A program made the position numbers and the translations under genes. A DNA stretch of 64,000 bases from Enterobacter sp. JUb54 (lineage in GTDB: Bacteria; Pseudomonadota; Gammaproteobacteria; Enterobacterales; Enterobacteriaceae), in NCBI RefSeq assembly GCF_014298075.1, contig NZ_CP060418.1:1922001-1986000 (forward strand), read 5' to 3'. The notes under the pieces are model-generated. The model saw only the letters and a list, made by a program, of their open reading frames with translations, searched no databases and was not told where the DNA came from. This document shows, in pieces, positions 1,532 to 34,023 of the stretch. The number at the start of each line of letters is the position of its first letter. The first letter of the stretch is position 1.

Positions 1532-1560
1532 TCTCAGATGGCGTGATAGTGCTCAACAAC

Positions 1561-1584
1561 TAAGCCCCGCAACCGCGGGGCTTA
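1561..1584. terminator. Hairpin between convergent yjhP and cigR
   Basis: AAGCCCCGC and GCGGGGCTT form a perfect 9-bp stem with a 4-nt loop. It lies between genes that converge, so it may end transcription from both sides. No long T-run follows on either strand. Confidence 0.55.
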
Positions 1585-1600
1585 TCGTAATGCGGCTGGT

Positions 1601-2131
1601 TTAATCGAAAACACCGTTGATGATTGAGGTCACAATGGCGGTGCTCAACGCAATCAGCACCAGGTCATCGCCAACGGCGCGCCATTCGTAACCCGGATAA
1701 TAAGGCAAATCGTTGATCATCGACGCTGGTAAGGTTTTTTTGGCAATTCCCGGAGGTAACGGCTTACCGCGTACCAGATTTTTTGCAATACCCGGCGGCA
1801 GCGTTTTATATCCGACGAGGCCGTAATTCACCGCAAGCGAACGCGCGCGGGTGAAGCTGATATCGGAGTCAACGTGGTCCGGTTTGCCATAGTTTTTACG
1901 GCTACCGTGATCGGCATTCGACTTGCCCTTCTCCTGGCCGTTACTGGCATTGTTACCATTATTGCCCTTGTTACCATTATTGCCGTGATTACCGCTGTTG
2001 CCACTATTACCGTGCCCATTGCCGTTGCCGTTGCCGTTGCCGTTGCCTGGGTTTGCATAAACCGGCGCGGCCAGCACGGCGAGGGAGATCATAGCCGCAA
2101 GCGCGGTTTTGAGGGTTCGACGCTTTAGCAT
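1601..2131 (-). CDS. cigR: CigR-family (RcnB-domain) exported protein
   Basis: A 176-residue protein with a signal peptide (residues 1-26, ending VYA), a Gly/Asn-rich low-complexity stretch at about 27-65, two copies of the LPPGIAK motif near residues 111-130, and a hydrophobic C-terminal helix at about 155-175. This layout fits the RcnB-like family annotated as anti-virulence regulator CigR after the Salmonella SPI-3 protein, which represses virulence. A signal peptide plus a C-terminal hydrophobic segment suggests periplasmic exposure with membrane anchoring. It is monocistronic, between convergent yjhP and the M14 peptidase gene. Function here is inferred from the family only. Confidence 0.75.
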   Translation of the reverse strand: MLKRRTLKTALAAMISLAVLAAPVYANPGNGNGNGNGNGHGNSGNSGNHGNNGNKGNNGNNASNGQEKGKSNADHGSRKNYGKPDHVDSDISFTRARSLAVNYGLVGYKTLPPGIAKNLVRGKPLPPGIAKKTLPASMINDLPYYPGYEWRAVGDDLVLIALSTAIVTSIINGVFD

Positions 2132-2272
2132 TCTGTTTATTCCGTGAGGTGAAGTACACGATGAGAATATAGGTTAAGGCAATACCCTTAACAATCTCAT
2201 GCTTTCTGAATTTTAAACACGTCGCGGACATAGATAGCCGGGATAGCCTGGACAGGCTCCCGGCCAGTACAT

Positions 2273-3190
2273 TCACTGTGATATCGCGAATTCGATAGCC
2301 CGGTGGAGCGTGACAACCTGCGCCCGGGTGCACTCCTGCGGCGTAGTCGATGCGCTGTCGGGATAGACTTCCGTGGTCGTGGTAAAGGGCGCGTTGGTCA
2401 TGCTGGCGCATAAATGCCAGGCGCCGTTGTCATACTCAACCACCCCGTGAGTCACCACCGGATAACCCAGCATGCTGCCTTTCTGGTCTGCCGGGGCAAT
2501 ATGCGTCACCGCTTCCACAGCGGAGATAATTGCGCTCTGGAAGTCCAGCCTGGAGTTGCGCGTATCGCTGACCAGATAATAACCATCCGGCACGCATTCT
2601 GGCTCGTACTGTCGGCCATCTCTGGCGGCCAGCGCCGGGCTGAACTCACTTTCATCGCTGTCCGTCGTTTCATGCAAATCGACGTGCACCAGGATGCGTT
2701 CTGGTATCTGCGCGATAAATGCCATCAACGTTAACGACTCTTCCGCTTTACCTTCCGGGAAAAACTGCCGGTTGGGATCCACCGCATGGTAGTTCCAGCG
2801 GGCAACACGCTCGTACGCCCAGGGGCTGACACAGGGGATAACCAGCAGATTAACCGCGTCGGAATAGTCGTTCTGATAATGGGATAAAAATTCCAGCGCG
2901 CCCAGAACGCCGCTGGTTTCGTAACCGTGGACACCGCCGGTAATCAGCGCCACAGGCAGGCTGGGATCCCACGCTTTAGACCTGGCCGCCATTAACGGAT
3001 AGTGGTCATCGCCATAATGTAGCTCGCCATACTGAACAAGATCGTAGCGGTCATTGAGCGAGTGCAGAACGTCAAGGACATCATTTTTATAGTATCTGAC
3101 GCGGGTCTGGCGCTCTCGCCACAACTGCTTTTCAGTCTCGGACCAGGGCTGCCCTGGCGTACCGATGGGATAAAACGGTTCAGTTGTCAT
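2273..3190 (-). CDS. M14-family zinc carboxypeptidase-like protein
   Basis: A 305-residue M14-type metallopeptidase. The zinc ligands are visible as H88 and E91 in GGVHGYETSG and H173 in HVDLHE; N140-R141 (DPNRQF) matches the substrate-carboxylate binding pair, and E274 in TTTEVYP is a candidate general base. No signal peptide is seen, so it likely acts in the cytoplasm on short peptides or acylated amino acids. It lies 19 bp downstream of the EamA transporter gene on the same strand, suggesting an operon that joins hydrolysis with export. Substrate unknown. Confidence 0.75.
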   Translation of the reverse strand: MTTEPFYPIGTPGQPWSETEKQLWRERQTRVRYYKNDVLDVLHSLNDRYDLVQYGELHYGDDHYPLMAARSKAWDPSLPVALITGGVHGYETSGVLGALEFLSHYQNDYSDAVNLLVIPCVSPWAYERVARWNYHAVDPNRQFFPEGKAEESLTLMAFIAQIPERILVHVDLHETTDSDESEFSPALAARDGRQYEPECVPDGYYLVSDTRNSRLDFQSAIISAVEAVTHIAPADQKGSMLGYPVVTHGVVEYDNGAWHLCASMTNAPFTTTTEVYPDSASTTPQECTRAQVVTLHRAIEFAISQ

Positions 3191-3209
3191 ATTTCACTCT
3201 ACAGAAGAA

Positions 3210-4079
3210 TTAATTCGTTAAGCCGCGACGACGCGCCGGCAACCAGACGGATAATACCGACGCGCCAATAATTAACACCGCTCCCATCAGGGTTTGCCCG
3301 CCGGGTTGCTGATGCAAGAAAATCCAGGCCAGCAGCACAGCATACACCGGCTCCAGCACAATCATCATCGATACGGTACTCGCCTGCAGCGTGCGCAAGC
3401 CCCAGGTCAGCATCCAGTATGCCAGGCCAGTACACAGAATGCCCAGTAAACCAATGAAAACCAGATCGTGGCCGCTGCTGTGAACCAGGCCCGCGAGCCC
3501 GCCGGGAAGCGTCACCAGCGCGCAGCCCGCGCACTGCCACCAGGAGGACTGTATTGCCGATGCCCGAATGCGCAGGTAGCGATTAAATATAATCACCAGC
3601 GCATGGATAAACCCCGATCCTAGCGCCCAGAGTAGCCCCGTCAGGCTGCCGGCATTTTCAGTCCGCATCGGCGCAAGTATGTAGACGCCAGCAACGATCA
3701 TCGTCACCAATAACATATCGAAAAGCGCCGGTTTCTTATGCGACAGCACCGCCTCAATCATAATGACAAAAGCGGGGAATGTCGCAAAACCGAGCGTGCC
3801 GATCGCCACGCCCCCGGCTTTAACGCCCATAAAAAAGCAAAACCAGTGGCCAGCCAGCAATGCGCCATTCAGCAGCAGCTTGCTTCTGTCGCGCCAGGGA
3901 ATATATGTGCGCGACCTGTCGAACAGGCACAGCAACGCGCCGAGAAAAAGCAGTGCGAACGCCCCTCTTCCCAATACTACCGCCGTAATATCACTCTGGA
4001 TTTGCTCCCCCATCAGCGCCGATAAACCGAACAAAACCGTACATGCCTGGATGGCGAGATAAGCTCTGACGTTGCCCAT
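3210..4079 (-). CDS. EamA/DMT-family transporter
   Basis: A 289-residue integral membrane protein with about ten hydrophobic segments, arranged as two EamA repeats typical of drug/metabolite transporters. The loop carrying the basic C terminus (PARRRG) fits cytoplasmic orientation. It is the first gene of a two-gene unit with the M14 peptidase and is transcribed away from the LysR gene at 4179, which probably controls it. The family exports amino acids and other small molecules; the substrate here cannot be read from sequence. Confidence 0.8.
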   Translation of the reverse strand: MGNVRAYLAIQACTVLFGLSALMGEQIQSDITAVVLGRGAFALLFLGALLCLFDRSRTYIPWRDRSKLLLNGALLAGHWFCFFMGVKAGGVAIGTLGFATFPAFVIMIEAVLSHKKPALFDMLLVTMIVAGVYILAPMRTENAGSLTGLLWALGSGFIHALVIIFNRYLRIRASAIQSSWWQCAGCALVTLPGGLAGLVHSSGHDLVFIGLLGILCTGLAYWMLTWGLRTLQASTVSMMIVLEPVYAVLLAWIFLHQQPGGQTLMGAVLIIGASVLSVWLPARRRGLTN

Positions 4080-4178
4080 ATTTCACCTCAATTAGCCGTA
4101 AGGCGAATTTACCCGGCAGAAGATTACCCGTAAAATGAATAATACACTGCATTAGCATTCGATAATCGGATAGGTGAT

Positions 4179-5033
4179 ATGACCGAACCCCATCTGGAAA
4201 TTAGCTGGCTAAAGACCTTTATCACCGTGGCCCGCACAGGTTCGATGACGGAAGCCACCTCGTCGCTGTGCCGCTCTCAATCGGCAATCAGTATGCACAT
4301 CAAAAAAATCGAGGAGACGCTGGGCCGCAAGGTGTTCAATCGCGAGGTCAGACGGCTTACCCTGACGCCCGCAGGTCAGGAGTTGTTGCTCCATGCCCAG
4401 CGCCTGCTGGGAGTTTACTCCGAAGCTATGCAGAGCCTGACGGGGTCGAACGTGCAGGGGAAAATCAGCCTCGGGATCCCCGATGACTACGCCGTGCGCT
4501 ACCTGCCCCAGGTGCTGAAGGCCTTCGGGGAAAAATATCCGGCGATTGAGATATCGCTTTTCTGCGAGCCTTCCCTGACCCTCATTCCGAAAATCGAGTC
4601 CGGGATGCTGGATGTGGCGATTGTCACCCGGGATATCTCCGGGCGCGGCGAGCTGCTGTTCAGCGAACAGCTAGTATGGACGGGGATAAAAAGCACGCTC
4701 ATCAAGGAGGATCACCCCTTGCCTGTTGCCGTTTATGAATATGGCAGCGAAGCGCGGAAAAAGGTACTGGCCGCGCTTGAACAGTTACCTTCGGGGTACC
4801 GAATCGCCTACAGCAGTCCCTATGTTGCTGGTCAGATTGCCGTTGTCGAAAGTGGAATGGCGGTCGCGGTACTGACGCGCTGCAGCGTCCCGCAGCATTT
4901 GCACATCATCCATTCGGAGAAACTCCCGGCGTTACCGTCGCTGGAGGTCGTCGTGATCTCCCGGGAAAATGCGGCCAGCGCAACGCTCAATCCGCTGCTG
5001 GTCAATGAGATAAAGCTTCAGCTGCAACGGTAA
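4179..5033 (+). CDS. LysR-family transcriptional regulator
   Basis: A 284-residue LTTR. The winged helix-turn-helix lies at about residues 8-66, with the usual pattern SMTEATSSLCRSQSAISMHI, followed by a periplasmic-binding-protein-like effector domain. It is divergent from the EamA/M14 genes across a 99-bp gap, the classical LTTR layout, so it likely regulates them and itself. Effector unknown. Confidence 0.85.
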   Translation: MTEPHLEISWLKTFITVARTGSMTEATSSLCRSQSAISMHIKKIEETLGRKVFNREVRRLTLTPAGQELLLHAQRLLGVYSEAMQSLTGSNVQGKISLGIPDDYAVRYLPQVLKAFGEKYPAIEISLFCEPSLTLIPKIESGMLDVAIVTRDISGRGELLFSEQLVWTGIKSTLIKEDHPLPVAVYEYGSEARKKVLAALEQLPSGYRIAYSSPYVAGQIAVVESGMAVAVLTRCSVPQHLHIIHSEKLPALPSLEVVVISRENAASATLNPLLVNEIKLQLQR

Positions 5034-5042
5034 ACGCGCCAG

Positions 5043-5780
5043 CTATACGCCGACGTGATGGCTCGTCAGCACGTTGTCGATATAGCGGTGAAGCATCAGC
5101 GTCGGCGGATCGCTGACCGGCGGCACGTTGACGGTTCCAAACCATACGGGATTTGCCGGACAAACGGAGCCGCAGATATACGCCGGCACACCCGCAAAAG
5201 TACCCACTACCGGTCGGTGCACGTGCCCGGCAGAAATGGCCAGCAGACTGGCTGGCGAGTTTCTTATCACGTGCTCCAGCTCGCTTAGCCCCCTGCACAT
5301 CAACGGGTCCAGAGTCGGGATGCCCGATGGGAACAGGTGATGATGGGTAAACAGCAGCACCGGGGAGTCGCCTGCGTGATGGAGCTGGCTATCCAGCCAC
5401 GCGCCATGCTCGCTCAGATCGCCATAATCTTCCCCCTCGACCGTCGAATCGAGTCCAATCAGGCGCAATGCCCCGGCCTGATGAACAGCATGTAACGCCC
5501 TCGTGGATGCATCCTGCGTCCATCGACTTTCACCCCATGTGGCGCGCATCAATTGACGATCGTCAGCGTTGCCCGGCAGGATCAGCGAAGGATAATCTAG
5601 CTGCTCCAGACGGGCCGCGATCTGTTGATAGCCTTCCAGCCAGCGATCGTCCGTCAGGTCGCCGCTTAGCACCAGGGCATCCGGCCGCACATGGGCAAGC
5701 CATGTCAACACCCGGTCAAACCGAAGCAGGTGTTCATTGTCCGGTGACGCATGAATATCTGAAACCTGTGCTATCAGCAT
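5043..5780 (-). CDS. Calcineurin-like phosphoesterase, CpdA-type
   Basis: A 245-residue cytoplasmic metallophosphoesterase with motifs in order: D8-x-H10 (SDIH), GDLTDD with D41, GNAD with N71, THHH at residues 145-148 and GHVH with H186 and H188. The usual GNH(E/D) motif reads GNAD, so the conserved His next to the metal-bridging Asn is Ala; cyclic-nucleotide phosphodiesterases of the CpdA/Rv0805 type commonly keep that His, so specificity may differ. It converges on the LysR gene with 9 bp between them. Confidence 0.75.
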   Translation of the reverse strand: MLIAQVSDIHASPDNEHLLRFDRVLTWLAHVRPDALVLSGDLTDDRWLEGYQQIAARLEQLDYPSLILPGNADDRQLMRATWGESRWTQDASTRALHAVHQAGALRLIGLDSTVEGEDYGDLSEHGAWLDSQLHHAGDSPVLLFTHHHLFPSGIPTLDPLMCRGLSELEHVIRNSPASLLAISAGHVHRPVVGTFAGVPAYICGSVCPANPVWFGTVNVPPVSDPPTLMLHRYIDNVLTSHHVGV

Positions 5781-6004
5781 AAACCCCTGTTACCCCGCGG
5801 CAATGTTCGCTGTGTCAGACCAGACTGTCTTGTAAGGTGGCGGCAATCTGGCAGAATGCCCAATGACATATACTCCATCTTTCCAGGTACATCGGCTTTC
5901 GGGTAGGTAAAAGCGTGTACGGCATCAGCTTAGTTGACCTGCTAGAAATTAGCGCCAACGATGGTCATTTCCTTCACGAAGCTGACGACATCGGCCTGAG
6001 AGGT
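5781..6004. other. Intergenic stretch with a possible truncated gene end on the minus strand
   Basis: No complete gene is visible. On the minus strand, codons from 6004 read TSQADVVSFVKEMTIVGANF and then stop at about 5942, directly after the SDR gene. A further open piece (DAVHAFTYPKADVPG) recalls the C-terminal part of dienelactone-hydrolase-type proteins. It may be a decayed gene, but the similarity is only by eye. Confidence 0.25.
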
Positions 6005-6844
6005 TCAGGACTTCATAAAGGTTTCAAACGCCGCTTTCCAGTCGGGATGCCAGCGAGACAACGCGGGCCGGTTTTGAATAATATCCTGATAGGCCCAGGT
6101 AATGCGCTTCGCGTCCATTTCCGGCGTCACTGCCGCATCCGGACAGATAATATAAAAATCACCGTCAGAGAAACGTTCGACAAAATAGTCAATGACTTGC
6201 TCAGAGGTCCACGTGCCGGTTGGCTGAATATCAGTATTCTCGTTCATCCCAGGGAAGTTCATCGGTGTCCAGGTGTAGCCCGGCACCAGCAAATGCGCCG
6301 AAATCCTGTTTCCGCACTCTTTTAATAAGTCATGCGCAAGCTGCTCGGTAACAATTTTGACGCCGGCTTTTGAAACGTTATAAGCATTGTTGCCTGGCGG
6401 CGTCGTGATGCCTTGTTTAGAGCCGAGATTCACGATCGCGCTACGCTTATTTAGCGATAACATCGCCGGCACGAAGATATGCTGAACATTAATAACAGAC
6501 AGCAGATTACCTTCGAGCTGGATCCGCCAGTCATCAGGATCGCCCCACGGTCCAACAGGGTGCGAAATTCCGGCATTATTCATCAACAAGGCGATATCAG
6601 CGAATTCGCGCAGGGTGATATTAAGCAGCTTTTGAATATCCTCGGGATGTCTGACATCCCCGGCGACCAGACGGACTTCCGTTTCCAGCGTGTTGGATAA
6701 TGCCTGCAGAGCCTGCTCATCTCGATCGAAAAGACACAGGTTCATCCCTTCCCGGGATAATCGTTTTGCTGCCGCTGCGCCAATTCCTTTTGCTGCACCA
6801 GTTATCACGGCCGTACGCCCTTTTGCGATCACGGGATTCGTCAT
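6005..6844 (-). CDS. Short-chain dehydrogenase/reductase (SDR)
   Basis: A 279-residue classical SDR. The NAD(P)-binding motif TGAAKGIG is at residues 15-22, NNAG at 92-95, and the catalytic set S145, Y158 and K162 is intact. It is about 30 residues longer than the usual 250, the extra lying at the C terminus. A GGAGGTG Shine-Dalgarno fixes the start. Its promoter region carries a long inverted repeat (6880-6913) and a copy of the local palindrome (6963-6976), placing it in the gene group likely run by the LysR at 8267. Substrate unknown. Confidence 0.8.
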   Translation of the reverse strand: MTNPVIAKGRTAVITGAAKGIGAAAAKRLSREGMNLCLFDRDEQALQALSNTLETEVRLVAGDVRHPEDIQKLLNITLREFADIALLMNNAGISHPVGPWGDPDDWRIQLEGNLLSVINVQHIFVPAMLSLNKRSAIVNLGSKQGITTPPGNNAYNVSKAGVKIVTEQLAHDLLKECGNRISAHLLVPGYTWTPMNFPGMNENTDIQPTGTWTSEQVIDYFVERFSDGDFYIICPDAAVTPEMDAKRITWAYQDIIQNRPALSRWHPDWKAAFETFMKS

Positions 6845-6879
6845 TTTTCACCTCCAGGCGATATTCATTTTCCCAACTT

Positions 6880-6913
6880 TTCGGATAACCTTGTTTATTC
6901 AAGGCTATCCGAA
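6880..6913. repeat. Near-perfect inverted repeat upstream of the SDR gene
   Basis: TTCGGATAACCTTG (6880-6893) and CAAGGCTATCCGAA (6900-6913) are reverse complements with one mismatch, separated by 6 nt. It lies 36 bp before the SDR start codon and has no T-run, so it fits an operator or 5'-UTR hairpin better than a terminator. Confidence 0.75.
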
Positions 6914-6962
6914 CTATAACCGAAGACCGGCATAACGTTGTTTACGTCAGTCAGATGCCTTA

Positions 6963-6976
6963 TTGAATTAAATTCA
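6963..6976. promoter_or_regulatory. LysR-type palindrome, copy 1
   Basis: TTGAATTAAATTCA matches the TTGAATT-N-AATTCAA pattern except for the final base. It lies about 120 bp upstream of the SDR start and overlaps the stop codon of the phosphoesterase gene. A T-N11-A core is present, as in LTTR operators. Confidence 0.5.
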
Positions 6977-8098
6977 TCCTTCTGAATCTAATGTCAGCAA
7001 TGTTATTTCCGCTGGTTTGCCTAGTCTTAACGGGAAGCCATTCCAGAGCCCGGTTCCGTTACTCACATATAAAGACATCGCGTTGACCTGATAATGCCCG
7101 GAGACGTAACCGTTATTGGCGGGCGCAATTATCTTATCGAGGCCGTAGATCATCCCCCCGTGAGTATGACCTGACAATTGCAATGACACCCCGGCGTCGG
7201 CGCTTTCCCGGGCATGTCCTGGACGGTGACTCATCAGTATGATTTTATCGGATGGGGCGGTACCTGAAAGGGCTGAAGATAAATCCGGCGGCGCACTGCC
7301 ATATTCGGCGGCCACATCGTCAGTAATACCCGCAATAACTAATCGCGCACCGTTTCGTGAAAGCACGAGGTGTTGATTGTTCAGAAAATGCAAACCCAGA
7401 CGGGTAAATTCAGTGGTCCATGCGTCTGCATCAAAATAATATTCGTGATTACCGGTAACGGCATATACACCGTCATGAGCGTTCAGCAGAGCAAGCGAGC
7501 TGACATCATTTTTTCTGTTGGCTACGGTGCCGTCAATCATATCTCCGGTAAGCAATATCAGGTCAGCATTTAAGGCATTTGTTTTCTCAACAACCTGACG
7601 CAACCACGCCCCTGTCAGGAGACGACTAACATGGAGATCGGTAAGCTGGACAACGCGATAGCCGTCATACTCTTTCGACAACCCCGGAATAACGACCTTT
7701 ACTTCACGAACGTCAGGCACTTTTAACGATTCGTACACCCCAATGCCGGAAAGCAGCGCCGCGATAATGACCAGCGCCCCATCGACTTTCAAAGACGCAT
7801 ATCGATGCCGCGTTATCAGATAACGAGCAAGCATCAAAACATCACGAACAATAAGCAGAACGAACAGGATGACGATACAGCCGAAACCCCAGCCTAAAAA
7901 CGTCATCACCGATTGCGGCAGTTCCGGTGAAAACATCGTGCCAAATAGCATCCTGCTGAGAAGATGAAAATCGGCAACCATGGCAAGCGCGATAAATATC
8001 AGGCATCGCAATAACCACGAGATCTGACGAGGGTAAACCAGCCTGACCCCAATATAGAGTGCCGGGAGTAAAGTCCAAAGATGAAACACGCAAAGCAT
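6974..8098 (-). CDS. Membrane-anchored metallophosphoesterase
   Basis: A 374-residue protein with about four hydrophobic segments in the first 125 residues, then a calcineurin-like domain with all metal motifs: D154 and H156 (TDLH), D186 (GDMID), GNHEYY with N217 and H218, H291 (SHRPGH) and H311/H313 (GHTH). This resembles the YkuE/YaeI group, some members of which act on lipid-linked or UDP-sugar pyrophosphates; the substrate here is not known. It is divergent from the LysR gene at 8267, and two palindrome copies lie in the shared promoter region. Confidence 0.8.
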   Translation of the reverse strand: MLCVFHLWTLLPALYIGVRLVYPRQISWLLRCLIFIALAMVADFHLLSRMLFGTMFSPELPQSVMTFLGWGFGCIVILFVLLIVRDVLMLARYLITRHRYASLKVDGALVIIAALLSGIGVYESLKVPDVREVKVVIPGLSKEYDGYRVVQLTDLHVSRLLTGAWLRQVVEKTNALNADLILLTGDMIDGTVANRKNDVSSLALLNAHDGVYAVTGNHEYYFDADAWTTEFTRLGLHFLNNQHLVLSRNGARLVIAGITDDVAAEYGSAPPDLSSALSGTAPSDKIILMSHRPGHARESADAGVSLQLSGHTHGGMIYGLDKIIAPANNGYVSGHYQVNAMSLYVSNGTGLWNGFPLRLGKPAEITLLTLDSEG

Positions 8099-8169
8099 TC
8101 CTTATGTGATGAACATTGAGAGCTTCTCATCAATCAAATCGGATGTGACACCGGCCGTAGACAAGATTG

Positions 8170-8227
8170 TTGAATTAAACTAAAAATAACACTTAATTAT
8201 GGCAATAATTGTTGAATTAAATGCAAT
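8170..8227. promoter_or_regulatory. LysR-type palindromes, copies 2 and 3
   Basis: TTGTTGAATTAAA occurs twice, with the TTGAATTAAA cores at 8170-8179 and 8212-8221; the second extends to TTGAATTAAATGCAA (8212-8226), one base from a full palindrome. They are 42 bp apart, four helical turns, between the divergent phosphoesterase and LysR genes. A 12-bp perfect palindrome TGCAATATTGCA follows at 8223-8234. Confidence 0.55.
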
Positions 8228-10554: not shown

Positions 10555-10727
10555 TGCTGAAACATCTCCCGTGTATAAAACATAGAGTGAATTACGCGAT
10601 TGCTCATCACGACCCATCCTGCCATCGCTGCGCCGGTAGATATGAAGATCATTGATGATAACGTTGAGCGGAATTAAACTATACACGACAAACTGGCCGT
10701 AATTGTTTAGCCATAACAGATGCTTCA

Positions 10728-10742
10728 TTGAATTTAATTCAA
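10728..10742. promoter_or_regulatory. LysR-type palindrome, copy 4 (perfect)
   Basis: TTGAATTTAATTCAA has perfect 7-bp arms around a central T. It lies upstream of the MFS gene in the 294-bp gap between that gene and the next LysR gene, and is the best copy of the motif also found at 6963, 8170 and 8212. Confidence 0.6.
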
Positions 10743-10848
10743 TTAAAATAACCGAATAAAGGCGTTGTTGCTGTTCGGTGGGTTATGTATTTCGGGCCAG
10801 GATAGGCCATGTCATCAACAGGCTATTTCAGATATCCCTGGATACACG

Positions 10849-11781
10849 TTACTGATTTCCTGCCCGTGCGCCCTGGCGAAGATTCTCCACGATGAATTCA
10901 ACCAAAACGCGGATCCGATGCGGCATATGCTGTGTCTGGGGATAGACCAGGTAGAATGGCTGTGTCGCGCCATTCACCGCCGGTAAGACTTCGCACAGTT
11001 CACCGCGAGCGAGTGCATCCGCCACAACATAACGATAGATTTGGTAGATCCCGGCACCATTTTTGGCCAGAGACACACCGGCCAGATAGTCTTCCGAACA
11101 GAGCAGACTGCCCTTCAGGTGGATCTCCTGTTGTTCCCCGTCAGTACGTATCAGCCACGGCGCAGGACGCCCCGTACCGGGCAACACAAACCGAATACAC
11201 TGATGTAACGCGAGATCCTGCACCGACGCGATCGGCGGGTGCTGCTGGAGGTAGTCTGGGGAAGCAACCATCACCAGCCCGGCGTCTTCCAGCTTGCGGG
11301 CGATTAATGTTGAATCATCCAGTTCGCTCCCCCGAATCGCCAAATCATAATCTTCGCGCGCAAAATTGACGCTGTGCGTGCTGATATGAAACGCCAGATC
11401 GATCTGCGGGTAACGCTGCTGGAACGGTGGGATTAATGGGAACAGCCGCCAGTGCGCGTATGCCGCTGGCAGACTGATACGCACGGAACCCGATGGTGTT
11501 TGCTGTTCGCCAGTCGCCTCAAGCTCAGCATGATGCAGCAGCTCCATCGCCGCACGACACTGCGCCGCGTACTGCCTGCCGGCGTCAGTCAACCTCACCT
11601 GCCGGGTGCTGCGGATAAAGAGCGGAATACCCAGACGCTCCTCGAGCCGCATAATGGTCTTGCTCACCGCCGCAGGCGAGATCCCGGCGGCCTGCGCCGC
11701 CAGGGTAAAGCTCTGGTGCTCGGCAGCAAGACAAAACAAATCGATGCTGCTAATCATGATGTCGTTCAAACGCTGCGGCAT
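10849..11781 (-). CDS. LysR-family transcriptional regulator
   Basis: A 310-residue LTTR of the CrgA/DmlR-like branch, with helix-turn-helix at about residues 12-70 (QSFTLAAQAAGISPAAVSKT) and an effector domain with the SEDYLAGVSLAKNGAGI segment typical of that branch. It lies 61 bp downstream of the tautomerase gene on the same strand, so it may be cotranscribed with, and regulate, the SDR/tautomerase unit. The start could also be the Met at residue 9. Confidence 0.85.
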   Translation of the reverse strand: MPQRLNDIMISSIDLFCLAAEHQSFTLAAQAAGISPAAVSKTIMRLEERLGIPLFIRSTRQVRLTDAGRQYAAQCRAAMELLHHAELEATGEQQTPSGSVRISLPAAYAHWRLFPLIPPFQQRYPQIDLAFHISTHSVNFAREDYDLAIRGSELDDSTLIARKLEDAGLVMVASPDYLQQHPPIASVQDLALHQCIRFVLPGTGRPAPWLIRTDGEQQEIHLKGSLLCSEDYLAGVSLAKNGAGIYQIYRYVVADALARGELCEVLPAVNGATQPFYLVYPQTQHMPHRIRVLVEFIVENLRQGARAGNQ

Positions 11782-30247: not shown

Positions 30248-31876
30248 TTATGCTTCGTCGCCCATCAGAATCTGACCGAACTCGGCCCGCAGCTGATTCT
30301 TCAGTACCTTACCGGTGGCGCTCACCGGCAGGCTGTCAATAAACAGAATCCGGTCCGGAAGCTGCCATTTCGGTATTCGCTGCTGATACCAGGCCAACAG
30401 CTCATGCTCTTCGATCTCGCTGCCCTCCTCCCTGACGCACAGCACTACCGGCCGCTCATCCCAACGTGGATGCTGCGCCGCAATCGCCGCCGCGCTGCGA
30501 ATCGCCGGGTGAGCGATGGCAATGTTCTCCAGCTCTACCGTGGAGATCCACTCGCCGCCGGACTTAATAATATCTTTCGCCCGATCCTGAATCACCAGAT
30601 AGCCATTTTGATTGAGCGTGCCAATATCGCCGGTATCGAACCAGCCGTCCGGGGTCATGGCGCTCTCCGGGCGGCCATAATAACTGGCGACCACCCAGTG
30701 GCCGCGCACCTGCAAATATCCCTGAGTCTCACCGTCGTCGGGCAGCGGTTGGCCGTCCACATCCACCACCCGCAGCTCGATGCCAAAGATCGCCCGCCCC
30801 TGGCCGTGACCCAGCTTATCCTGCGCCGCCTGAGGCAACGCCTTGTGTTTGCTTAACGGCGTGTTGATCGTGCCGATCGGCGAGGTTTCCGTCATGCCCC
30901 AGGCGTGGATCAACTCAATATCATAATCGCGGCGGAACACCTCAATCATCGACGGCGGCAAAGCCGAGCCGCCAACAAAAGAGCGTTTAAAATGCGGCAA
31001 GCGAATCTCCGATTTGCGCAGCGCCGCCAGCAGGCCGGCCCAGATCACCGGGACGCCGAACGCCACGCTGACCTGCTCTTCACTCAGCAACCGCAGCAGG
31101 CTTTCGCCATCAAGATTCGGCCCCGGCAGCACCAGTCGCGCCCCCACCATGGCGGCGATAAACGGCGTTCCCCAGGCATTGACGTGGAACATCGGCACCA
31201 CCGGCAACAGCGAATCCTGCGCCGAAATACCGGCGGCATCTGGCTGATTGCCGCTGAGGGCATGCAGCACCAGCGAACGATGGGTGTTCAGCACCCCTTT
31301 CGGCTTTCCCGTCGTTCCCGAGGTGTAGCACAGCGAGGCGGGCGACTGCTCGCTGAGATCGGGCCAGCGATACTGTGGGTCCGCCTCGGCGAGCAGGTCA
31401 TCAAAGAACAGCAGCGAGTCCACGGTGGCAAGCGCCGCCTCGTTGCGCGGTTCCAGCACAACAAAATGTTTCACCGTCGGTAAGTGTGGACGCAGCGCGG
31501 CGATCAGCGGCAGGAAGGTATAGTCGAAAAACAGGACCTCGTCGGCAGCATCATTGATGATAAACACCAGATGCTCAACGGACAGACGCGGGTTGATAGT
31601 GTGCGTCACCCACCCGCCGGCGCTGACGCCAAAATAGATTTCCAGATGCCGGCGATTATTCCACGCCAGCGTGCCGCAGCGGGCACCTTGCGTTATCCCC
31701 AGGCGCTGCATGGCACTGGCCAGACGCCGCGCACTCTCCGCTACCTGCCCCCAGCTGCTGTACTCCCGTCCTGCTAACGTCCCGACCGAGACAATACCGG
31801 TATCGGTGTGATAGCGCGCGGCATGTTCGAGTAGCGCTCGGGTCGTTAAATCCTGATACATCATCGATGGATGCAT
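30248..31876 (-). CDS. AMP-forming acyl-CoA ligase
   Basis: A 542-residue ANL-superfamily ligase that activates a carboxylic acid as the acyl-AMP and transfers it to CoA. Motifs: P-loop YTSGTTGKPKG, AWGMTET, YFDTGD-type GWFDTGDIGTLNQNGY, the hinge DRAKDIIKSGGEWIS and the catalytic Lys in SATGKVLKNQLR. It is most like medium/long-chain fatty-acid ligases. Substrate cannot be read from sequence. Lies alone, divergent from the cytochrome b561 gene across 313 bp. Confidence 0.85.
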   Translation of the reverse strand: MHPSMMYQDLTTRALLEHAARYHTDTGIVSVGTLAGREYSSWGQVAESARRLASAMQRLGITQGARCGTLAWNNRRHLEIYFGVSAGGWVTHTINPRLSVEHLVFIINDAADEVLFFDYTFLPLIAALRPHLPTVKHFVVLEPRNEAALATVDSLLFFDDLLAEADPQYRWPDLSEQSPASLCYTSGTTGKPKGVLNTHRSLVLHALSGNQPDAAGISAQDSLLPVVPMFHVNAWGTPFIAAMVGARLVLPGPNLDGESLLRLLSEEQVSVAFGVPVIWAGLLAALRKSEIRLPHFKRSFVGGSALPPSMIEVFRRDYDIELIHAWGMTETSPIGTINTPLSKHKALPQAAQDKLGHGQGRAIFGIELRVVDVDGQPLPDDGETQGYLQVRGHWVVASYYGRPESAMTPDGWFDTGDIGTLNQNGYLVIQDRAKDIIKSGGEWISTVELENIAIAHPAIRSAAAIAAQHPRWDERPVVLCVREEGSEIEEHELLAWYQQRIPKWQLPDRILFIDSLPVSATGKVLKNQLRAEFGQILMGDEA

Positions 31877-32189
31877 GAATGATACTCCGCGACTGGCTGA
31901 TTATGTTGTGTGTTGGGCTACCACTAAATCTGGCAACAACCCGCAGAACCGACCAAAAGAGATGTGCAAAATTTAGCGTTGACGCACAACAATTGCCCTC
32001 TGGCGCTGGGGAATGTGATGGAAGCTGGTTTTTTACAACAGCTTACGACTGGCAACCGGTCGGGTGAAACCGGTCAGACAGCGGATAAGTTTCCGGCGGG
32101 AATTATCACAATTAATTTAAGGTTTTGTGATACATCGGGGACCACTTTTGAGCCACACTGTTTTTAACGCACTGACCGGGAATATAACA
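31877..32189. other. 313-bp divergent intergenic region
   Basis: It separates the ligase gene from the cytochrome b561 gene and must hold both promoters. A short direct repeat ACCGGTC occurs at about 32053-32082. I see no convincing known operator, hairpin or small gene. Confidence 0.4.
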
Positions 32190-32801
32190 ATGAACACGCC
32201 AACGTTTCAGGTTAAGCCCGCGACCATTCATCCTTTATGGTTAAGAATATGTCACTGGGTGAATGCCCTCGCGATATTAATAATGGTCACCAGCGGCTGG
32301 CGTATTTATAACGCATCGCCACTATTTGCTTTCGACATTCCGGATATTATTACCCTCGGCGGCTGGCTTGGCGGGGCATTACAATGGCATTTCTTCGCTA
32401 TGTGGCTATTTGCGTTGAACGGCCTGGCGTATTTGGCACTGAATATCAGCAGCGGGCGATTAACACGCCAGTTCTGGCCGCTGTCGCCGCGAGGCCTGGT
32501 GCAGGATTTACTTTCGGCCCTGCGCGGTAAGCTGGCCCATGACCATGCCGGACAATATAACCACGTCCAGAAACTGGCTTATCTGTTCGTGATGGTCGAT
32601 AGCATTATTCTGACGCTATCTGGCCTGGTTATCTGGAAATCGGTGCAGTTTCCCCTGCTGAGAGAATTACTTGGCGGTTATGACAACGCCCGCGTTATCC
32701 ATTTTCTGGCAATGTCGGCGCTAGTGGGTTTTGTGGTGATTCATCTGATCATGGTGCTGTTAGTACCGAAAACATTACTCGCCATGCTCCGTGGACGATA
32801 A
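32190..32801 (+). CDS. Cytochrome b561-type membrane protein
   Basis: A 203-residue cytochrome b/b6-domain protein with about four transmembrane helices. Candidate haem-ligand histidines are in LRICHWVNAL near the start, ALQWHFFAMW, and the late ARVIHFLAMS and FVVIHLIMVL helices. It starts at ATG 32190 with GGGA upstream. It lies 10 bp before the molybdoprotein gene, so it is the likely membrane electron donor, in the manner of YedZ/MsrQ for YedY/MsrP. Confidence 0.8.
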   Translation: MNTPTFQVKPATIHPLWLRICHWVNALAILIMVTSGWRIYNASPLFAFDIPDIITLGGWLGGALQWHFFAMWLFALNGLAYLALNISSGRLTRQFWPLSPRGLVQDLLSALRGKLAHDHAGQYNHVQKLAYLFVMVDSIILTLSGLVIWKSVQFPLLRELLGGYDNARVIHFLAMSALVGFVVIHLIMVLLVPKTLLAMLRGR

Positions 32802-32811
32802 GAGGTCTCTG

Positions 32812-33600
32812 ATGAGCCAACGTGATAAATCACTGCCGACTGCCGATAAGAACATCATTATCCAGGACGCCAGTCGGGAAATAAATAAACAACTGTCTGC
32901 CGAAGGCCGTCGTCGTTTTTTAAAACAGGGCTTAACCCTCGGCGGTTTAATGATGTTGACCGGATGCGACATCAGTAATAACAGTTCGGTCGAAAATACC
33001 CTGAGCCGTATTTCCCGATTTAACGATCGTGTTCAACAATGGTTATTTAACCCTGATGATCTCGCGCCGGTATATCCCGAAAGCATGATAACGCGCCCCT
33101 TCCCGTTTAATGCGTTTTATAGCGAGGATCAGGCGCCGACGATCGATGGCAGCGATTATCGTCTGGAAGTCACCGGGCGCGTGAGCGATAAACGTGCCTG
33201 GAGCCTTGCCGAACTGCATAACATGGCGCAGGTCAGCCAGGTTACGCGGCATATTTGTGTGGAAGGATGGAGTGCCATTGGTAAATGGGGCGGCGTACCC
33301 TTTGCCCTGTTTCTCAAAACGATCGGGGCGGACCTGAATGCCAGCTACGTCAGCTTCCGCTGCGCGGATGATTACTACACCAGTATTGATATGGCAACCG
33401 CCCTCCACCCGCAGACCCTGATGGCATTAACCTACGACGGTCAGATTTTGCCTCGCAAATATGGCTTCCCGATGAAGATAAGGATCCCTACCAAGCTGGG
33501 CTATAAAAACCCCAAACATATTTTGGCTATTGAAATCACCAATCGCTACCCCGGCGGTTACTGGGAGGACCAGGGCTATAACTGGTTCGGCGGTAGCTAA
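32812..33600 (+). CDS. Tat-exported sulfite-oxidase-family molybdoprotein (MsrP-like)
   Basis: A 262-residue oxidoreductase of the sulfite oxidase molybdopterin-binding family. A twin-arginine motif (RRRFLKQG) at about residues 34-41 is followed by a hydrophobic stretch ending LMMLTGCDIS, a lipobox-like site with Asp at +2, which suggests a Tat lipoprotein kept in the inner membrane. The Mo-ligand Cys lies in RHICVEGWSAIG, comparable to RMRCVEAWS of E. coli MsrP. AGAGG precedes ATG 32812. Substrate is inferred from context: methionine sulfoxide in the neighbouring Met-rich protein. Confidence 0.8.
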   Translation: MSQRDKSLPTADKNIIIQDASREINKQLSAEGRRRFLKQGLTLGGLMMLTGCDISNNSSVENTLSRISRFNDRVQQWLFNPDDLAPVYPESMITRPFPFNAFYSEDQAPTIDGSDYRLEVTGRVSDKRAWSLAELHNMAQVSQVTRHICVEGWSAIGKWGGVPFALFLKTIGADLNASYVSFRCADDYYTSIDMATALHPQTLMALTYDGQILPRKYGFPMKIRIPTKLGYKNPKHILAIEITNRYPGGYWEDQGYNWFGGS

Positions 33601-33661
33601 TTCACTGTGGTCATCATCTGTGATTGATCCAGAACGTATACACTCATGAAGGAATGACGAA

Positions 33662-33964
33662 ATGAAAAAGCTCAATACCCTGCTGATGTGCTCTGCTTTG
33701 CTGTTTGGAATGGCCGGCGCCAACGCGGCTGACAATATGGCCAAGGACAATATGGCGAAAGACAGTATGGGCAAAATGTCCCATGACTGTACCAAAGACA
33801 GCATGAAAAAAGAGTGTATGTCGAAGGACGGCATGGCCAAAGACGGGATGAAGAAAGATGGCATGTCGAAGGACAGCATGCATAAAGACACGATGAGCAA
33901 AGACGGTATGGCCAAAGATTCAATGTCGAAAGACAAAATGGCCAAAGACGCCATGAGTCACTAA
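33662..33964 (+). CDS. Secreted pentapeptide MXKDX-repeat, methionine-rich protein
   Basis: A 100-residue protein with a 22-residue signal peptide (ending GANA). The 78-residue mature part is almost only pentapeptide repeats of the form M-x-K-D-x and holds 15 Met (19%), 2 Cys and many Lys/Asp. It has no hydrophobic core and is probably unstructured in the periplasm. It lies 61 bp after the MsrP-like gene with AAGGAA upstream of its start. Context suggests a sacrificial oxidant scavenger like the MrpX peptide of Azospira suillum; metal binding is an alternative. Confidence 0.85.
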   Translation: MKKLNTLLMCSALLFGMAGANAADNMAKDNMAKDSMGKMSHDCTKDSMKKECMSKDGMAKDGMKKDGMSKDSMHKDTMSKDGMAKDSMSKDKMAKDAMSH

Positions 33965-33990: not shown

Positions 33991-34023
33991 AAAGCGATTG
34001 CCCACCCAGGCAATCGCTTTTTA
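33991..34023 (+). terminator. Terminator after the MXKDX-repeat gene
   Basis: AAAGCGATTGCC and GGCAATCGCTTT form a 12-bp stem with a short loop, followed by TTATTA. It closes the cytochrome/molybdoprotein/MXKDX unit. Confidence 0.85.

Follow-up and report, generated by a model that had tools for sequence, protein, structure and literature searches.

An MXKDX operon of Enterobacter sp. JUb54 keeps an OrhR box in the absence of an adjacent orhRK

Organization of the operon

The window analysed here is a stretch of 64,000 nucleotides from Enterobacter sp. JUb54 (RefSeq assembly GCF_014298075.1, contig NZ_CP060418.1, positions 1,922,001 to 1,986,000 of the forward strand). It contains an operon for a cytochrome b561, a molybdopterin lipoprotein exported by the twin-arginine translocation (Tat) pathway, hereafter the Mo protein, and a methionine-rich MXKDX protein. 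What is new is its regulation: the genes of the two-component system OrhRK are absent beside the operon, the box for OrhR is kept, and a related regulator lies far off in the genome. The initial annotation had placed the three genes in a row, and the open reading frames (ORFs) and profile scores confirm this. They are co-directional on the plus strand at 32190-33964 and encode 203 residues (b561, 32190-32801), 262 residues (Mo protein, 32812-33600) and 100 residues (MXKDX protein, 33662-33964), with intergenic gaps of 10 and 61 nt. A plus-strand box at 32106-32130, 59 bp 5' of the b561 start codon, matches exactly the OrhR site motif TCACA-N15-TGTGA (PMC8550376). The G+C content is 50.0% in the operon and 55.8% in the whole window.

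Against two relatives, the ratio of nonsynonymous to synonymous substitutions (dN/dS) is 0.10-0.11 for the b561 and 0.07-0.08 for the Mo protein, compared with 0.045 and 0.049 for the genes that we take to be cobB and nagK, and the synonymous sites of the MXKDX gene are saturated. Judged by these ratios, the b561 and the Mo protein are under purifying selection. The operon is a real and apparently intact member of the known C3566-C3568/MrpX kind of module.

The cytochrome b561 and the Mo protein

The b561 scores 86.1 bits against PF01292 (gathering cut-off 30.1), and its hydropathy profile has four peaks. His22, His67, His171 and His185 are invariant in 11 aligned b561 sequences and are candidate haem ligands; His14 and His117 are likewise invariant. 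The protein is predicted to donate electrons from quinol to the molybdenum cofactor. MsrQ of E. coli K-12 belongs to PF01794 and the window partner to PF01292, and no similarity between the two was detectable by sequence comparison.

The Mo protein scores 101.5 bits against PF00174 (cut-off 24). Its Tat signal, RRRFLK, begins at residue 33, and its lipobox, LTGC, contains Cys52 and has an Asp at position +2. In an alignment of 39 Mo proteins, the one from the window included, Arg33-Arg34, the lipobox Cys, the Mo-ligand Cys149 and Glu151 are invariant. The initial annotation suggested a lipoprotein retained in the inner membrane. Retention through the Asp at +2, a residue present in only 15 of the 39, is something that we infer.

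The Mo-ligand Cys149 aligns with Cys146 of the MsrP precursor, and the surrounding motif, ICVEGWS in the window and RCVEAWS in MsrP, bears out the resemblance noted at first. Among the curated families, the highest score is to MsrP (the NCBIfam equivalog PRK05363), with 82.9 bits below a cut-off of 207; the scores to the sulfite dehydrogenases SorA (52.1 bits), SoxC (37.6) and SorT (10.9) also lie below their cut-offs of 600, 420 and 570. The pairing with MsrQ (PF01794), which is a trait of MsrP, is not seen here, where the partner is PF01292. We regard the Mo protein as a candidate methionine sulfoxide (MetSO) reductase of the MsrP-like type. The genome also carries an ordinary msrPQ, with 85.5% and 80.1% identity to K-12.

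Alternatively, the Mo protein could be an oxidoreductase for sulfite (or another S- or N-oxide) and be connected to the quinone pool for electron exchange by the b561, with another role for the methionine-rich protein. Its fold is unspecific and compatible with a sulfite dehydrogenase, but a Foldseek search with the Mo-protein model, among the 1000 top-ranked chains, places the MsrP (formerly YedY) structures 1xdq and 1xdy first. The ranking of MsrP above SorA and SoxC argues in the same direction, as does the CVE-W-S motif of MsrP, which is kept where SorA differs. The Msr neighbours and the shared box described below point to MetSO repair rather than to sulfite, and mutants of the E. coli homologs are sensitive to peroxide (PMC8550376). 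We consider a sulfite-type enzyme improbable.

The MXKDX protein

The third gene product scores 72.8 bits against TIGR02953 (pentapeptide MXKDX, cut-off 41). The predicted mature protein has 78 residues, 15 of which are Met (19.2%), and 11 M-x-K-D motifs, exactly as first annotated, and the Met-to-Met spacing is five in 12 of the 14 intervals. By analogy with MrpX and C3568, it is a putative exported sacrificial oxidant sink. It might instead bind metal like PcoE and SilE, which are periplasmic copper and silver binders, in a module mainly for metal stress, since it is Met-rich and exported and contains two Cys, and since some relatives have HprRS-like genes as neighbours, a type with links to copper in E. 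coli. However, the spacing of five and the motif counts (11 M-x-K-D, a single M-x2-M/H, no M-x-M) argue otherwise, and no copper gene was found among the neighbours checked with Pfam, which are a minority of all neighbours. A metal-binding role seems very improbable to us.

Distribution of the three genes

We surveyed 295 genomes of the order, with the TIGR02953 cut-off for MXKDX proteins and an E-value of 1e-20 or better for the b561. MXKDX proteins were found in seven genomes (13 at E 1e-3), b561 relatives in seven, and Mo-protein relatives of at least 66% identity in seven (169 at E 1e-3, the rest nearly all weak). These are the same seven genomes, each with the genes next to one another, as expected if the three families co-occur, which had been proposed as a check. 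The gene set is beyond chance because the same genes lie side by side again in other genomes.

A scan of named genomes gave 590 Mo-protein relatives, of which the best 80 were kept; all are at least 63% identical, so that close relatives are over-represented. A b561 gene is adjacent in 80 of the 80 loci and an MXKDX gene in 66. Some of the 14 misses lie at contig ends, and two (L131 and L132; G, C and L numbers are our designations of genomes, contigs and loci) have another Met-rich ORF at this place. Neighbours include MsrA (11/80), MsrB (7/80), SigF-like extracytoplasmic function (ECF) sigma factor genes (10/80) and NrsF (8/80). The SigF/NrsF-linked relatives of the operon come from records titled Azonexus, Polaromonas, Formivibrio and others.

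A search for MXKDX proteins across the phylum matched 54 of 398 genomes, 35 of them over the cut-off. Eighteen of the 30 loci viewed have a Mo-protein and/or b561 gene within 1.5 kb. The other 12 comprise ten from family f66 with neither gene (L145, L147, L148, L151-L154, L156, L158 and L162) and two beside an ECF sigma gene only, so that the MXKDX protein is not an obligate partner. In all ten f66 genomes a b561-Mo pair is encoded at another place (54-59% identity for the b561, 49-52% for the Mo protein), and no MXKDX gene was recognised within 1.5 kb of these pairs. Near the MXKDX gene, L145, L147, L151 and L162 have an ORF whose start is Tat-like. The b561 and the Mo protein are thus the constant core of the module, and the MXKDX protein is a frequent addition.

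In six distant MXKDX loci (L155, L160, L163, L164, L168 and L169), the b561 is 26-29% and the Mo protein 33-39% identical to those of the window; the membrane partner belongs to PF01292 in the five tested (all but L164), and SigF-like genes lie beside L155, L160, L163 and L164. No ORF in the 80 Mo-protein loci and the 30 phylum loci had K-12 MsrQ or MsrP as its best match. The initial annotation considered that a b561 as electron donor would make this a distinct version of the known systems. As the pairing with a b561 is the rule among the relatives kept, with 80 of 80 loci, and as the c3566-c3568 operon of E. coli CFT073 has been published (PMC8550376), a distinct version is not supported; the proposed role in periplasmic oxidant scavenging and MetSO repair is supported.

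In the classification used here, the genus of the window also includes Raoultella planticola, as G304, a member of this genus, matches R. planticola ATCC 33531 (L060) with 100% identity across 3,774 bases of the locus. Among 20 genus genomes, three hold the intact operon of the window type, two from other species (G296, L174, and G305, L175) hold shortened remnants, and two hold the HprRS-linked type. Two of the seven order genomes (G228 and G276) have a second b561-Mo pair (Mo protein 56-58%) beside HprRS-like genes, with no MXKDX gene recognised, and these second copies carry a TGACAATTTTGTCA box. Beside these pairs (L050 2663-11487 in G228:C7; L051 in G276:C22) lies a gene for an exported protein of about 207 residues with a DUF5666 match below the cut-off, and a few kb past them are fasciclin, ECF sigma and RskA anti-sigma genes (Pfam for L050 only). 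In complete E. coli genomes, similar DNA is found in 350 of 5,426, with 75 of 363 places on plasmids and none covering 80% of the query. On one such plasmid, pE700481_91 (L003), the module is flanked by transposase fragments. The three genes occur twice in tandem, with a box each, in L113 (Bordetella genomosp. 2, 1547-8222), which is either a duplication or an assembly artefact. An enterobacterial-type orhRK-operon module with an OrhR 82% identical to E. coli in a record titled Chryseobacterium sp. 18061 (L091) is probably contamination.

Loss of the local regulator and the remote OrhRK

In six relatives from the order, orhRK adjoins the operon and is divergent from it, whereas the window has no adjacent orhRK. 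The corresponding R. planticola locus (L171) has the order ligase, orhR, operon, cobB, and no orhK was recognised beside orhR. With blastn, window positions 31719-32036 align with L171 10306-10644 and positions 32097-33904 with L171 11507-13302. The window has a deletion scar of 60 bp in between (32037-32096, no strand), where L171 has 862 bp (10645-11506) that include the divergent orhR at 10736-11506.

The sole OrhR-type gene of the genome is located at G000:C1:2302106-2302822, about 345 kb from the operon and beside an OrhK gene; the two span G000:C1:2300631-2302822 and are flanked by genes that, from their sequences, we take to be artJ and rlmC. The remote OrhR and OrhK are 78% and 63% identical to their homologs in E. 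coli strain 1105, which stood in for CFT073 in our sequence comparisons, and the next best response regulator of the genome is 38% identical to OrhR. The helix WGYQHEGYEHTVNTHINRLR, presumably the recognition helix of OrhR, is identical in the remote OrhR, the strain 1105 OrhR and the local OrhR of R. planticola, while HprR differs. Among nine OrhR proteins compared, this putative recognition helix is nearly identical, and it differs in two HprR types.

No effector genes were recognised beside the genus-wide orhRK in the ten genus loci compared. A left half-box, TCACATTTTGTTTA, precedes the remote-type orhR in all ten; as the 3' end of rlmC extends into it, coding constraint may explain its conservation. 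At the artJ-rlmC site of G208 (L056), there is a complete five-gene module. A simple relocation of the operon's own regulator as the origin of the remote OrhRK was rejected on identity and genus-wide presence: the OrhR of this genome is 78% identical to that of strain 1105, compared with 66-67% for the regulators at the most similar operons (G112 and G140). One R. planticola genome (G304) holds both a 79% copy of OrhR and the local 63% copy, and two genomes of the genus (G307 and G311) have a second OrhR of 65-66%.

As for the surroundings, the upstream neighbour is an AMP-ligase-like gene on the minus strand (30248-31876), between potD and the operon; the R. planticola locus has one too. The downstream minus-strand neighbour is taken for cobB, and the names of the window genes potB, potC, potD, cobB, nagK and lolCDE are presumed from their sequences. 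A terminator of its own had been assigned to the operon, and a plus-strand terminator-like hairpin of 12 pairs indeed lies at 33991-34020, where the operon and cobB converge. However, a simple scan of the 3-kb region found three such sites with 3.3 expected by chance, which makes this terminator plausible only. The same scan found no plus-strand promoter-like site directly 5' of the operon.

The OrhR box

Only 0.02 exact boxes are expected in the window. The genome, a single contig of 5,304,724 bases, has three exact places, compared with one for a reversed-pattern control. A longer motif, built from relatives plus the window's own site, is matched with at most two mismatches solely at 32106-32130 and with three at two other genome places. 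The window box also aligns with the boxes of relatives.

In the 80 loci, boxes were called with at least 18 of 25 matches and at most one half-site mismatch. This gave 56 boxes in 938,887 bases, all of them upstream of the operon and in the same orientation. A box is present in 32 of the 33 loci scored as OrhR-like, or in 31 of 32 true cases without L102, a 25% fragment in Pseudomonas; none was found in the ten SigF loci or the two HprR-only loci. It is also present in 23 of 35 loci without OrhR, SigF or HprR, 22 of which are titled Pseudomonas; some flanks in these boxed loci end at a contig end (e.g. L082). The test is partly non-independent because the loci share genomes with the motif-finding set (L060 is G304, and L070 and L111 match G276 and G238). 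OrhR was sought at E 1e-50 in 12 genomes behind the 80 loci. It occurs elsewhere in all seven tested genomes that have a box and no OrhR in the examined flank (60-72% identical), and in neither of two SigF genomes.

The box of the window could nevertheless be a relic, with working genes that are silent or constitutive without the local OrhRK and not under the remote one. The local orhRK is lost, the remote OrhRK is found in the genus whether or not the operon is present, and the remnants in G296 and G305 show that the operon decays within the genus. Yet the box is still exact despite the deletion of the adjoining orhR, the helix WGYQHEGYEHTVNTHINRLR is unchanged in the remote OrhR, and the seven boxed genomes set a precedent for an OrhR elsewhere. 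On balance, we find a relic box rather unlikely.

OrhRK beside other methionine sulfoxide repair genes

Ten genomes that encode orhRK at a distance from the operon were compared. The divergent neighbour of orhRK is an MsrB gene in eight and msrPQ in one (Citrobacter sp. On2M); in the tenth, Edwardsiella, it is not an Msr gene. MsrB was assigned by Pfam or similarity, and in L201 by translation only. MsrA is also present in six of the eight MsrB-linked loci, and a DsbD-like gene in several, in views that differ in length. In eight of the ten loci, the region between the divergent genes contains a box of 18-24 matches out of 25, and in most of them none of 200 shuffled controls matched its score.

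As orhRK is divergent from MetSO-repair genes in nine of the ten, OrhRK may regulate envelope MetSO repair generally, and a regulon of this kind is the simplest reading. It may comprise three repair systems: the b561-Mo-MXKDX operon, MsrPQ, and a set of MsrB, MsrA and a DsbD-like protein. The literature searched, mostly outside subscription journals, contained no OrhRK regulon beyond c3566-c3568 and hlyCABD, and no paper that linked MsrP and methionine sulfoxide to a cytochrome b561.

In G307 (L185, 4354-9595), the second OrhR (66%) stands alone, with no orhK seen beside it. Convergent with it are genes for MsrB, a DsbD-like/thioredoxin protein and MsrA, and a DUF3750 gene lies on the other side. 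A box of 23/25 is situated before this orhR itself and not before the Msr genes.

Proposed role and regulation

We consider it probable that the operon is an envelope module for MetSO repair and oxidant scavenging that is induced in trans by the remote OrhRK. Electrons from quinol would pass through the b561 to the molybdopterin enzyme, which would be lipid-anchored at the periplasmic face of the inner membrane. The MXKDX protein would be oxidised instead of other proteins and have its MetSO reduced by the Mo enzyme, whose substrates perhaps include other proteins of the periplasm. The local orhRK may have been lost stepwise, with R. planticola keeping orhR without an adjacent orhK and the window keeping neither. 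A second, genus-wide OrhRK with the same recognition helix would remain after this loss, and its phosphorylated OrhR, from the remote pair with OrhK, would bind the box at 32106-32130 and induce the operon.

Several observations weigh against this. The score to MsrP is under its curated cut-off, the fold of the Mo protein does not separate it from sulfite dehydrogenases, and 12 of the 30 phylum MXKDX loci lack both partners nearby. The accessible part of PMC8550376 gives no oxidant phenotype for a c3568 mutant. The dN/dS ratios span time before the loss of orhR, which leaves present use of the operon unproven. The remote-type OrhR occurs in 20 of 20 genus genomes and the intact operon in three, so that the remote OrhRK did not evolve for the operon and has, or had, other targets. 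As to the box, it is poor in L076 (18/25, with two half-site mismatches) despite an adjacent OrhR. OrhR also occurs elsewhere in all three tested genomes with neither box nor SigF (L107, L131 and L137; 61-67%), and its presence therefore does not predict a box. No box was found between the divergent genes in G659 (L210) or in Edwardsiella (L107), where orhRK also lacks an Msr neighbour, and one of 200 shuffled controls matched the box score in L204.

The wider proposal, that OrhRK is a general regulator of envelope MetSO repair acting through one 25-bp box and that the genus-wide OrhRK has taken over the MXKDX operon, is in our view slightly favoured by the data.

Comparison with known systems

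The closest known system is c3566-c3568 of uropathogenic E. coli CFT073, which is co-transcribed and controlled by OrhRK (C3564/C3565), with OrhR binding to the promoter in an electrophoretic mobility shift assay (PMC8550376). Both systems have the same three kinds of genes in the same order, the box motif and a homologous two-component system. In CFT073, C3567 shares 27.6% identity with MsrP and C3566 shares 23.1% with MsrQ, the c3566 and c3567 mutants grow and survive less with tert-butyl hydroperoxide, and a strain lacking both genes survives less in macrophages (PMC8550376). The window proteins are 56% (b561), 64% (Mo protein) and 44% (MXKDX protein) identical to the strain 1105 homologs, and the C3566 homolog of this strain (L002) belongs to PF01292, like the window partner. 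However, the two-component genes are adjacent in strain 1105 and about 345 kb away here, where cobB follows the operon in the opposite direction. The CFT073 operon is also co-transcribed with the hemolysin operon (PMC8550376), in which the window differs. We do not hold an adjacent OrhRK, absent from the window, to be a defining feature, in view of the seven boxed genomes with OrhR elsewhere and the SigF-linked operons.

Two other systems were compared by description. The SigF/NrsF-YedY1-YedZ1-MrpX system of Azospira suillum (PMC4623255, PMC5748585, PMC8315932) likewise combines a Met-rich periplasmic peptide, a Mo enzyme and a membrane partner, but its regulator, SigF/NrsF, differs from that of the window. 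In Brucella melitensis, bcrXQP (with BcrS/AbcS) is induced by hypochlorous acid (HOCl), plays a part in HOCl resistance and is under ECF sigma control, unlike the operon of the window (PMC8315932). In both PMC8550376 and PMC8315932, the membrane partner is presented as a homolog of MsrQ. In every locus that we examined, which excludes Azospira and Brucella, the Mo enzyme linked to an MXKDX protein pairs with a b561 and not with MsrQ. Melnyk et al. 2015 (mBio) reportedly pointed out that the MrpX system is conserved in Brucella and in uropathogenic E. coli.

E. coli MsrPQ shares with the window a Tat-exported PF00174 enzyme with the CVE-W-S motif and a membrane partner. The partner is PF01794 in MsrPQ and PF01292 here, and MsrP has 334 residues, compared with 262 in the window enzyme, a predicted lipoprotein. 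The window is a naturally occurring example of a target operon which has outlived its adjacent regulator and may have come under another copy, and the box leads to a testable prediction of OrhRK-controlled envelope MetSO-repair genes in many Proteobacteria.

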